A program made the translations under genes and the position numbers. DNA of 64,000 bases from Candidatus Competibacter sp. (GTDB lineage: Bacteria > Pseudomonadota > Gammaproteobacteria > Competibacterales > Competibacteraceae): assembly GCA_029624815.1 (NCBI GenBank), contig JARSSH010000035.1, positions 1-64,000 on the forward strand. Reading direction: 5' to 3'. Positions 2,279 through 15,387 of the stretch are shown here, piece by piece; the stretch's first letter is position 1; every line of letters begins with the position of its first letter. Below the pieces are notes generated by a model. That model ran no database searches, was not told the origin of the DNA, and was given only the letters and a program-made list of their open reading frames with translations.

Positions 2279-2510
2279 CTGTCTATTATGCATATCTATA
2301 AGGCCATGATTTTTTTGTAATTAAAGCGGTAAATTCCCTCCCCCTCATGGGGGAGGGCGAGAGAGCGGTAAATTCCCTCCCCCTCGTGGGGGAGGGCGAG
2401 AGAGGGGGTTGGGTTCGATCACACCCCCCCGAATTCGCGACCCGAGAATCGGGCAACTCCCACCCCAACCCTCTTCCACAAGGGGAGGAAGACTTGTGTG
2501 TAACGGACAG
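2279..2510. mobile_element. MITE-like element, CTGTC-ended family, copy A
   Basis: A 232-bp non-coding element starts CTGTCTATTATGCATA and ends in TGTGTGTAACGGACAG. Read inward, the right end is CTGTCCGTTACACACA, so the ends are imperfect inverted repeats. It aligns along its whole length with the 195-bp copy at 14618-14812; the extra length is a 39-bp tandem duplication. Internally it has G/C palindromes (CCCTCCCCCTCGTGGGGGAG) and the shared GAATTCGCGACCCGAGAATC stretch. I see no clear target duplication here, so this copy is probably older or rearranged. No protein is encoded, so any transposition would need a transposase in trans. Confidence 0.65.
2325..2402. repeat. 39-bp tandem duplication inside MITE copy A
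   Basis: Two adjacent 39-bp units beginning AGCGGTAAATTCCC occupy 2325-2363 and 2364-2402. They differ at one base in the loop of the palindrome (CTCATGG versus CTCGTGG). The copy at 14618-14812 has a single unit. Confidence 0.85.
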
Positions 2511-11140: not shown

Positions 11141-13464
11141 GGTAGCGCCTCCCGGCTCGAAGGCAGGCGAATGCTGAAGCAGGCGCCCTGGCCCGGTTTG
11201 GAAGTTGCCGACAGCCGGCCGTTGTGTTGCTCGGTGACGATGAAATAGGACACCGACAGTCCCAGGCCCGTCCCGGCGCCCACCTCCTTGGTGGTGAAGA
11301 AAGGCTCGAAAACCCGGTTAAGGGTTTTTTGATCCATGCCGGGCCCGTTGTCAATCACTTCGATTAAAACGGCGTCCGGTTCGCGCCGGGTTCGCAGGAG
11401 GATGGCCGGCGATGGCGTGCCGTCCTCGGCCATGGCTTGCGCGGCGTTCTTGAGCAAGTTCAGAATCACTTGCTCGATTTCGGTCTTGTCGCAATACACC
11501 ACGCGTAGCGAGGCGTCGTAATCGCGTTCGATGGCGATGCGTTTGAAATCGTACTTCTTTTTCAGATCGTAGTCGCTGGCGGCCAGTCGCAGCACGGTTT
11601 CCAGCATGTCCTCCAGATCCACCAGGCTGAAGCGCGACTCGCTGCGTCGGCTGAACGACAGCATGTCGGTGACGATCTTGGCGGCCCGCGAGCCAGCTTC
11701 GCGAATGCCTTCGAGGAAATGCAGGATGCCCCGTTCCGCCAGATAGCGGTTGATCTGATTCAGATCGGCGCCGAGGCTGGCGGCCGCCTCGCGATTCTGC
11801 GGCATGTCCGGGTCGATGCGCCGCAAAACGTTCTGGCTGCCTTGCAGGATCACGCCAAGTGGGTTGTTGATTTCATGCGCCATGCCGGCCGCCAGCCCTC
11901 CGACCGACAACATTTTTTCAGTCTGCACCATCATGGATTCGATTCGGACCCGGGCGGTGACGTCGTCCATCCGGATCACCGCCCCACTGGCGCTTTCCGC
12001 CATCAAAGGATAGACCATCACGTCGGCATAGTGCAGTTCGCCGTGGACATCGAAGGTCATTCGCGGCGTCTTGATCGGCCGGCCGAGGTGGATCGCCTGC
12101 CGTACCTGTTCGAATTGATTTTCCAGCTGCGGAAACACATCGCCGAAAAAGCGGCCCTGCGCGGTTTCCCACGACAGGCCGCTCACCTCCTCGGCTGGCT
12201 GGTTCAGCACGGTGATATAACCCCAGGGGTCCACGCCGATCAAGATCGAGGGCATCGAGTCGATGATGTTCCTGAGATAGAGCCGCATGCGGGCCACTTC
12301 CTCCTTGGCGTGTTTCTGCTCGGTGATATCGATCGAGACGCCCAACACCGCGGTTTCGTTCAGACCCGGTTCGATGAAAGGGATCTTGATGGTCTGCATG
12401 GTGCGAGTGTGGCCGGTGTGGTCGGTAAAGGCCTCTTCGGCGATGAGCTTGGACACTCCGCTCTCGATGACCTCCAGATCGTCGACCAGCATCCGCTCCA
12501 CCTCTGCATCGGTGCGGTGAATGAGGCGATGGGAGTGGTTGGTCAGCGCTTCGATGGTCATGCCGTAGGCTGTGGCGGTGGCGTGGTTGGCCAGCAGGAA
12601 GTGTCCGTAGCGATCCTTGGCGAAAATCATGTGCGGCACCAGATCGATGATACGCCGTAACCGCAACTCGCTTTCATGCAGGGCCTTCTCCGCCTCGACC
12701 TGTTCGGTGATGTCGGTGCCGGTGCCGCGGTAGCCTCCGAACTGGCCCCGCGCATCGTGGATCGGCTTGCCGCTGACTTTCAGGTAGCGGCCCTCCCTAT
12801 GGCTGTCGCTCAGTCGGGTTTGGTAGACGAAGTCGCGGAATGGCTGGCGCTGTTCCAGCAGTTGCCGGTGCCGCCGCCACTTTTCCGGATCGGTGGTCAG
12901 TTCGCCGGCCGCCAGCTCCCAGCGGGCGCGGCCGAGCACGTACCGCGGAGCGATTCCGGTCAGCGCGTAAAAGCGTTCCGATAGATAGGTGAAGCGCAGG
13001 TTTTCGTCCATCTCCCAGATCCAGTCGCTGGCGGCTTCGGTGACGTCGCGGAAACGAGCCTCGCTTTCGCGCAGCGCCATTTCAACTTGCCGGCGCTCGT
13101 TGAGTTCCCGCTGCAATTGTCGGGTCCGCTGCGCCACCTGTCGCCGTAACAGTGAAGACCATAGCAAGGCCGCGACCGCGATCACCGCTAGCGGCACCAA
13201 AATCCAGGTGGCGTAGCGCAACACGGCTTCCATCGTGTCGGGTTTTCGATAAATTGGGTTCGCTGGAGGTTCGTCGCCGATCTGGCGATCGGGCGTCCTG
13301 TCCGAAAGCGGCGCCGCAACGGCGAGCGACGGCGTGACGACGACGCCGGCGAGGGAGAGGGCGCCGATCGCGACCAGTACGGCCATCAGGCAAATCCACA
13401 GCCGCCGGCGTCGGCGGGGAACGGGCGGTCGCGGACTTGGGGGTATGGCGAAAGGTGCGGACAT
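11137..13464 (-). CDS. membrane PAS sensor histidine kinase
   Basis: A 775-aa kinase. Two predicted membrane segments (about 23-45 and 85-107) bracket a short periplasmic loop. Then come a coiled coil and three PAS domains (about 135-255, 265-385, 395-510). HisKA has His530 in [18 protein letters not shown], and HATPase has [38 protein letters not shown]. There is no receiver domain. It is the first gene of a tightly overlapping four-gene operon whose later genes are a receiver, a receiver-phosphatase and a STAS protein. It therefore probably feeds a phosphorelay controlling partner switching. The signal is unknown. Confidence 0.93.
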
Positions 13465-13540
13465 AAGGGATGGCGCGGGTGAGATTAATCGCTATGATAA
13501 AACCATTTGGCCGGCAACAGACACGAATAAGGTGTGGACG

Positions 13541-14587
13541 ATGGCATTGGGACCGGTGATGCTGGGGCTGGATAGCCTGGAACTCAGCGCGGAGGAGCGC
13601 GAGATCCTGCGTCACCCACAGGTGGGTGGCGTCATTTTGTTCGCCCGCAACTATCGATCGCCGGAACAGGTGGCGGGGCTGACCGCCGCCATTCACGCCC
13701 TGCGCCAGCCGCGGTTGCTGGTGGGGGTGGATCACGAGGGCGGCCGGGTCCAACGTTTCCGCGACGACTTCACCCGCTTGCCGCCGGTACGTCGGCTGGG
13801 CGAGATTTACGACCGGGACCGGATGCGCGCCAAACAACTGGCGCGCGTTACCGGCTGGCTGATGGCCGCCGAACTGCGGGCGGTGGGGGTGGATTTGAGT
13901 TTCGCGCCAGTGCTGGATCTGGATCATGGCGTGAGCGGCGTAATCGGCGATCGGGCGTTTCATCGCGACCCGGAAGCGGTGGCGGATTTGGCTCATGCCT
14001 ATGCGAGCGGTATGCAGAAAGCGGGCATGGAAGCGGTCGGCAAGCATTTTCCGGGGCATGGCGGCATCGCCGCCGACTCGCATCTGGAGTTGCCGGTGGA
14101 TCCGCGCGCCTACGCCGATCTGGAACGCGCCGATCTGCTGGCCTTCGAGCGCATGATTCACTACGGTTTGGCCGCCATCATGCCCGCGCATGTGCTTTAT
14201 CCCCAGGTGGATGATCGACCGGCCGGTTTTTCGGCGCGCTGGCTGCGGGACATCCTGCGACGGCGGCTGGAATTCCAGGGGACGATTTTTAGCGACGATT
14301 TGGATATGGCGGGAGCAGGCGAGGCCGGCGCCGCGCCGGATCGGGCCGAAGCGGCGCTGGCGGCCGGTTGCGACATGGTGTTGGCCTGCAACGACCGCCG
14401 CGCCGCCAGCGCCATTCTGGATCGTCTGCGCCATGCCTCGGATCCGGTCAGCCAGTTGCGGCTGATCCGCCTGCACGGGCGTGGCCACCCCACCCTGGAG
14501 CGCCTGCGTCGTGGTCCGACTTGGCGGCGGGCGACCCGCTTGGTGCATGATTACGATGCATTCCCGTTGCTGGACATGGATATCTGA
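13541..14587 (+). CDS. nagZ: beta-N-acetylhexosaminidase NagZ
   Basis: Cytoplasmic GH3 enzyme that removes N-acetylglucosamine from anhydro-muropeptides during peptidoglycan recycling. The chosen ATG gives 348 aa with AAGGTG seven bases upstream; the longer frame before it reads into the divergent kinase promoter. Motifs include [10 protein letters not shown], the histidine loop [14 protein letters not shown], and the nucleophile aspartate in IFSDDLDM. In Pseudomonas, nagZ is next to the MTIP phosphorylase gene. Here hpt and a MITE lie between them. A TATGAT box at about 13493-13498 could be its -10 element. Confidence 0.95.
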
Positions 14588-14607: not shown

Positions 14608-14822
14608 CCACTGAGCCCTGTCCATTATACATATCCATAAGATCATGATTTTTTAGTAATTAAAAACAGGAAATCCCCTCTTCCTTACAGGGGAGGGCGA
14701 GGGAGGGGGGTGAGGTTCTATCGCAACCCCCCGAATTCGCGACCCGAGAATCGGGTAACCCCCTACCCCAACCCTCCCCCACAAGGGGGAGGGAGACTTG
14801 TGTAACGGACAGCCACTGAGCC
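14608..14822. mobile_element. MITE-like element, CTGTC-ended family, copy B, with an exact 10-bp duplication
   Basis: The element proper is 14618-14812 (195 bp). It begins CTGTCCATTATACA and its right end read inward is CTGTCCGTTACACA, so 12 of 14 bases match. The exact decamer CCACTGAGCC is present on both sides, at 14608-14617 and 14813-14822, as expected of a target-site duplication. The interior holds two G/C hairpins, an AT-rich left arm with ATGATTTTTTAGTAATTAAA, and the block GAATTCGCGACCCGAGAATC, all shared with copy A at 2279. No coding sequence is present. It ends 20 bp before the hpt start codon, so it may supply or disrupt hpt transcription signals. Confidence 0.8.
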
Positions 14823-14832
14823 AAGGTTCGCC

Positions 14833-15387
14833 ATGCCCTCGATTACCGCCGAGCAGGCCATTGTCGTGTTGCGCGAAGCCGAACTGCTCTGCGCGCCGGA
14901 GCAGGTCGAGGCCGCGCTGGATCGACTGGCGGTCGCCGTAACCGCGCGGATGGAAGGCTGCAACCCGCTGGTGCTGGTGGTCATGAACGGCGCGCTCATT
15001 CCCGGTGCGCGAATACTGTCCCGTTTGTATTTTCCGCTGCAAGTCGGTTATTTGCATGCCACCCGTTACCGAGGCGGTACCCGCGGCGGCGCGATTGACT
15101 GGATCGCGCCGCCGCGGCCGGCGGTCGCCGGACGGACCGTGCTGGTGATCGACGATATCTTCGACGAAGGCGATACCCTCAAGGCGATCTTGGATGAAGT
15201 GCGTCGGCAGGGCGCGGCGGCGGTCTACAGCGCGGTGTTGGTGAACAAGCGGCACAACCGCAAGGCGCCGGGATTGCTTGTGGATTTTGTCGGGCTGGAG
15301 GTGCCGGATCGCTATGTGTTCGGCTGCGGCATGGACTACAAGGAATATTGGCGTCAATTGCCAGCCATCTACGCCGCCCGCGGCTGA
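14833..15387 (+). CDS. hpt: hypoxanthine phosphoribosyltransferase
   Basis: Transfers phosphoribose from PRPP to hypoxanthine (or guanine) to give IMP or GMP. The 184-aa type I PRTase has the PRPP loop VLVIDDIFDEGDTLKAIL, an early VVMNGALIPGARI loop and VLVNKRHN. The C-terminal region (LEVPDRYVFGCGMDYKEYWR) contacts the purine and resembles the Pseudomonas/Xanthomonas hypoxanthine-guanine group. It is directly followed by the MTIP phosphorylase, which releases hypoxanthine, so the pair makes a closed salvage step. The upstream intergenic region is almost entirely MITE copy B. AAGG precedes the ATG by about eight bases. Confidence 0.92.
   Translation: MPSITAEQAIVVLREAELLCAPEQVEAALDRLAVAVTARMEGCNPLVLVVMNGALIPGARILSRLYFPLQVGYLHATRYRGGTRGGAIDWIAPPRPAVAGRTVLVIDDIFDEGDTLKAILDEVRRQGAAAVYSAVLVNKRHNRKAPGLLVDFVGLEVPDRYVFGCGMDYKEYWRQLPAIYAARG

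Follow-up and report, generated by a model that had tools for sequence, protein, structure and literature searches.

A MITE with IS50/Tn5-type ends between nagZ and hpt in Candidatus Competibacter, and a candidate driver in the same genome

The insert between nagZ and hpt

The window, i.e. the whole 64-kb stretch of DNA analysed here, carries between nagZ and hpt a 195-bp element bracketed by an exact 10-bp direct repeat (Table 1). This arrangement, an exact duplication around a non-coding insert 20 bp before hpt, had been described in the first-pass annotation and was confirmed at 14608-14822. The nagZ stop codon lies 30 nt upstream of the element and the hpt ATG at 14833 leaves 20 nt on the other side. 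No credible ORF was found inside the insert; the only ORFs crossing it run antisense, overlap nagZ and hpt, and are considered spurious. The ends of the element are imperfect inverted repeats, CTGTCCATTATACA and (inverted) CTGTCCGTTACACA. Compared to the family consensus TTGTGTGTAACGG, the right end of this copy, TTGTGTAACGG, lacks one TG, which corresponds to a 2-bp deletion.

Table 1. Coordinates of the MITE copies, their parts and the neighbouring genes in the window
Feature	Position	Strand	Remarks
nagZ (beta-N-acetylhexosaminidase)	13334..14587	+	NCBIfam NF003740, 467 bits; upstream neighbour
Target-site duplication CCACTGAGCC, left copy	14608..14617	.	read directly; 10/10
MITE copy 1 (hpt copy)	14618..14812	+	195 bp, non-coding
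Left terminal repeat CTGTCCATTATACATATCC, 19-bp IS50/Tn5-type transposase site	14618..14636	+	assigned by sequence comparison
AT-rich left subterminal segment ATAAGATCATGATTTTTT..AATTAAAAA	14637..14666	+	copy alignment; kept even in 100-bp copies
G-rich/C-rich palindromic interior	14676..14792	.	folds as one long hairpin; mostly missing from short copies
Right terminal repeat CTGTCCGTTACACAAGTCT	14794..14812	-	one TG short of the family consensus CTGTCCGTTACACACAAGT
Target-site duplication CCACTGAGCC, right copy	14813..14822	.	exact match to left copy
hpt (hypoxanthine-guanine phosphoribosyltransferase)	14833..15387	+	NCBIfam NF006605, 239 bits; downstream neighbour
Second MITE copy	2279..2510	+	232 bp; internal tandem duplication; target duplication unrecognisable

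Folding predictions gave -63 kcal/mol for the plus strand and -71 kcal/mol for the minus strand of the palindromic interior (z about -3.7) and -87 kcal/mol for the whole element (z -5.7), and the 245-nt nagZ-hpt gap now contains a very stable hairpin. Neither a sigma-70-like promoter nor an intrinsic terminator was predicted in a scan. This outcome speaks neither for nor against the earlier suggestion that insertion next to the hpt start could change hpt transcription; the MITE separates hpt from nagZ, and this may matter locally. An Rfam search of the element returned sub-threshold matches only, mostly to microRNA hairpin families.

Copies, target duplications and empty sites

When the genome (3.63 Mb, 70 contigs) was searched with the 195-bp element, about 15 copies or remnants were found on many contigs, one of them, on C30, degenerate. 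Both ends are clear in 11 copies of 99-232 bp, which share about 71-91% mutual identity; in the alignment, internal deletions and a single duplication within the element distinguish them. Terminal inverted repeats are common to multiple copies. In the shortest ones (99-101 bp), what remains is the leftmost 50 bp and the right end together with a small palindrome, so a copy can exist without the full interior. In a screen of ORFs and codon positions the copies appeared intergenic, crossed only by frames that look spurious. The sibling copy noticed earlier in the window is real; it is 84% identical to the hpt copy and owes its extra length to a tandem duplication of about 38 bp, and its flanks score 3/10 with no recognisable target duplication. 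Two short copies (G000:C8:26296 and 31373), located about 5 kb apart, have a near-identical right flank of more than 100 bp but unlike left flanks, which suggests that the region was locally duplicated or rearranged.

As a control for the direct repeats, the left flank of one copy was paired with the right flank of another in 132 combinations, which gave a maximum of 7/10. Five copies of this genome carry 10-bp duplications scoring 10, 9, 8, 8 and 7 of 10, the last being borderline as it equals the control maximum, and two further copies carry 9-bp duplications of 8/9 each. The scores of 10, 9, 8 and 8 lie above the control maximum, and the duplications therefore exceed chance. A target duplication of 9-10 bp is thus present in 7 of the 11 two-ended copies, the borderline one included, and four have no duplication remaining. 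Short copies C33 and C57, which lack most of the hairpin, still bear duplications, and a homologous copy in a genome of another genus (G024) scores 9/10 at 10-bp spacing. At the C70 copy (G000:C70, about 663-920), the MITE right end and the decamer-like GGTTCAATCC recur about 50-70 bp downstream, as though the two had been repeated together.

An empty nagZ-hpt site with one decamer, which the first-pass annotation had proposed to look for in close strains, is present in two genomes of the same genus, G002 and G003. Their gap from the nagZ stop to the hpt ATG spans 42 nt and contains a single decamer equivalent (CCACCTCAACC or similar); it aligns with the 40 nt that remain of our gap when the element and one decamer are subtracted. 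Taken alone this comparison is good but not perfect evidence of an empty site, because the G002 and G003 flanks have diverged. For the copy on C53 the empty site is clear in three same-genus genomes: GTTTATGGCC occurs once in each of G001, G002 and G003 (GCGTTTATGGCCCCGG), and the C53 element is flanked by GTTTATGGCC and GTTCATGACC. The insertion at hpt widened the gap from about 40 to 245 nt. The description of the element as recently mobile holds insofar as its insertion postdates the divergence from the nearest species compared and its duplication has not decayed. It does not extend to a very recent burst, because the copies are only about 71-91% identical, and the hpt copy has a 2-bp deletion in its right end.

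Two other readings bear on these data. That decamers and ends arose by chance or from misassembly might be suspected in a draft genome of 70 contigs; however, the element lies well within its contig, about 15 diverged copies exist and the duplications score above the mismatched pairings. The empty sites, seen as they are in independent genomes, refute this reading, and we give it practically no credence. A cis-acting RNA or regulatory element, such as an attenuator or a processing site, that spread for its function and acquired its duplications incidentally would account for the stability of the hairpin and for the intergenic position of the copies. We consider this very improbable, given that the single-decamer empty sites demonstrate insertion, that the copies occupy differing loci in differing orientations, that C33 and C57 carry duplications without most of the hairpin, and that the element gave no Rfam family at gathering score and neither a predicted promoter nor a predicted intrinsic terminator. 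Altogether, the element is short (below about 500 bp) and non-coding, with shared inverted ends, target duplications and empty sites, as is typical of prokaryotic MITEs.

A candidate partner insertion sequence and related elements

To our genome-wide scan with the end pattern CTGTCYNTTANNCA responded, besides the MITE ends, a single inverted pair, C68:32164-33631. Its members are 1468 bp apart and enclose one intact ORF encoding a transposase of 466 aa, so that both further genomic copies and a full IS with such ends, which had been proposed as a check, were found. The transposase belongs to the IS4 family (NCBIfam NF033590, 371 bits, cut-off 160), contains the Pfam domains Tnp_DNA_bind, DDE_Tnp_1 and Dimer_Tnp_Tn5, and among solved structures matches Tn5 transposase (E about 1e-34). 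All residues of the DDE triad (D104, D201, E333) and of the YREK signature (Y326/R329/E333/K340) are present. It is the sole member of its family above the cut-off in this genome, where all further matches are weak or fragmentary.

Over the first 14 positions, the MITE and C68 IS ends agree at 13. The left end of the hpt copy matches both C68 IS ends at 16/19 positions and its right end matches them at 15-16/19. The end comparison also included the Tn5 outside and inside ends. With the Tn5 mosaic end (sequence from PMC2229646), the hpt copy agrees at 15/19 (left) and 14/19 (right) and the 2279-2510 copy at 16/19 and 14/19. Only five of the approximately 128,000 19-mers in the 64-kb window reach at least 14/19 to this mosaic end, and the four termini of the two MITE copies account for all but one of them. 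Published ends of the IS50 subgroup follow CW------Y---CA-A--W- and its members measure 1350-1550 bp (PMC2266710). The C68 IS end CTGTCCATTACACAGATCT fits this pattern at all listed positions and the other end, CTGTCCATTACACACATCG, at all except the last (W). The previously unrecognised family can thus be named: by matching ends and an intact transposase, it is the IS4 family, IS50/Tn5 type. The MITE resembles this type in its 19-bp ends, and the C68 IS resembles it in length, transposase domains, catalytic and signature motifs and single ORF; the MITE differs in lacking a transposase and in its mostly 10-bp duplications, compared to 8-9 bp in the subgroup and 9 bp in Tn5.

We rejected the idea that the MITE arose from the C68 IS by a simple internal deletion, as the similarity ends close to the termini. 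The left subterminal sequence is conserved among the MITE copies and is recognisable in G024 and G028, and it occurs in none of the ISs examined. An exact search with its 19-mer gave five matches in unrelated taxa, a search over named genomes from which this or very near genomes may have been excluded. Among 369 genomes of the class, the left-end pattern matched in this genome only. Outside it, MITE copies were found in G024 (full length, 75%) and G028 (left part), and perhaps in G004 (right end). At G028:C20 1-122 an IS50-type IS end stands directly within a MITE copy, and the IS appears to be nested in the MITE.

A related IS in the sister genome G003, whose fragments are mostly 79-85% identical to the C68 transposase, shows an exact 10-bp duplication, GTTGGTGGAC, whose two halves lie on separate contigs: the starts of contigs C10 and C31 carry the two IS ends, and the shared decamer suggests that these contigs join. 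The flanks of the C68 IS itself match only weakly, the best fit being 6/10 at a spacing of 10 bp, which does not demonstrate recent mobility of this IS. For the more distant homologs of the transposase, a search for element ends and duplications yielded no usable result.

As to the interior, a G-rich palindromic repeat (often GTTCAGACCCCCCACCCCAACCCTCCCCCACAAGGGGGGAGGGAGTT) is dispersed in many genomes of the bacterial family. These REP-like repeats (ACCCCAACCCTCCCCC..AAGGGGGAGGG) resemble the MITE interior over about 38 bp and, in the examples read, lack the MITE ends. The filler of the MITE may have been captured from such a repeat.

Probable mobilisation in trans and the length of the duplication

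The element is very probably a MITE with IS50/Tn5-type ends that was moved in trans by the C68 IS transposase or a close relative of it. On this reading, all that it keeps of an IS50/Tn5-type IS is the pair of 19-bp transposase-binding ends, placed around unrelated palindromic filler, and the 466-aa C68 enzyme or a near Tn5-like relative would bind both ends in trans. By analogy with the cut-and-paste chemistry of Tn5, the transposase would then excise the MITE and transfer its strands to positions staggered by 10 bp, sometimes 9, leaving the flanking direct repeat; one such event, later than the divergence from the nearest species compared, would have placed a copy in the short gap between nagZ and hpt. 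Mobilisation in trans by a related IS is expected of MITEs, and the genome has a candidate partner IS with matching ends; an IS50-type transposase is the mover that we infer.

Which enzyme acted is less certain. Since MITE and IS ends share only 15-16 of 19 positions, the movement may in fact have been driven by a related IS that is now lost. An IS50-type element of this kind, with the left end CTGTCCRTTATACATATCYATAAGATCATGA, would reduce the C68 IS to a cousin with similar ends, and it would explain why the left subterminal sequence is kept in the MITEs, including those of G024 and G028, and found in no examined IS; the age and divergence of the MITE copies also fit. Against it, the genome contains no other intact transposase of the C68 family, the first 14 bp of MITE and C68 IS are nearly the same, a close relative of the C68 IS has the same 10-bp duplication length, and IS and MITE coexist in G028, one inside the other. 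We regard a lost driver as a serious possibility, though somewhat short of an even chance. Our assignment places a formerly unrecognised repeat with a well-understood family of transposases and ties it to a candidate driver that is still intact in this genome, which makes mobilisation directly testable.

In other respects the MITE is mobile DNA of an ordinary kind. Literature searches listed no paper describing a MITE whose ends are of the IS50/Tn5 type, an absence that is weak evidence. Among known prokaryotic MITEs, those of the QMITE2 type share with it a length of 150-190 bp, terminal inverted repeats, copy-specific duplications, a palindromic core, a mainly intergenic location and the role of target for another IS. 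Duplications of QMITE2 in Coxiella burnetii span 7-11 bp (PMC5896051, PMC10969869). QMITE2 is apparently different in sequence, and the present case also differs from it in that the family of the partner IS is identified and empty sites are seen.

According to De Palmenaer et al. (PMC2266710), direct repeats measure 8-9 bp in the IS50 subgroup and about 10 bp in the IS4 family at large. The mostly 10-bp MITE duplications thus deviate slightly from the subgroup, and the 10-bp repeat of the G003 IS likewise lies outside its range and within that of the family. In an alignment with Tn5, two residues immediately ahead of Tn5 K120 are missing from the C68 transposase, whose R126 occupies the K120 position; in Tn5, changes of K120 reportedly lengthen the overlap from 9 to 10 bp (PMC5240201). 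From this alignment we tentatively propose, as a rather doubtful idea, that this Tn5-like branch might stagger its cuts by 10 instead of 9 bp owing to a target-contacting loop shorter by two residues and an arginine at the K120 position. If this is true, the MITE and its IS preserve a natural record of what determines the length of the target duplication. The 10-bp duplications in a Tn5-like branch offer a small natural test case for transposase-set target spacing.
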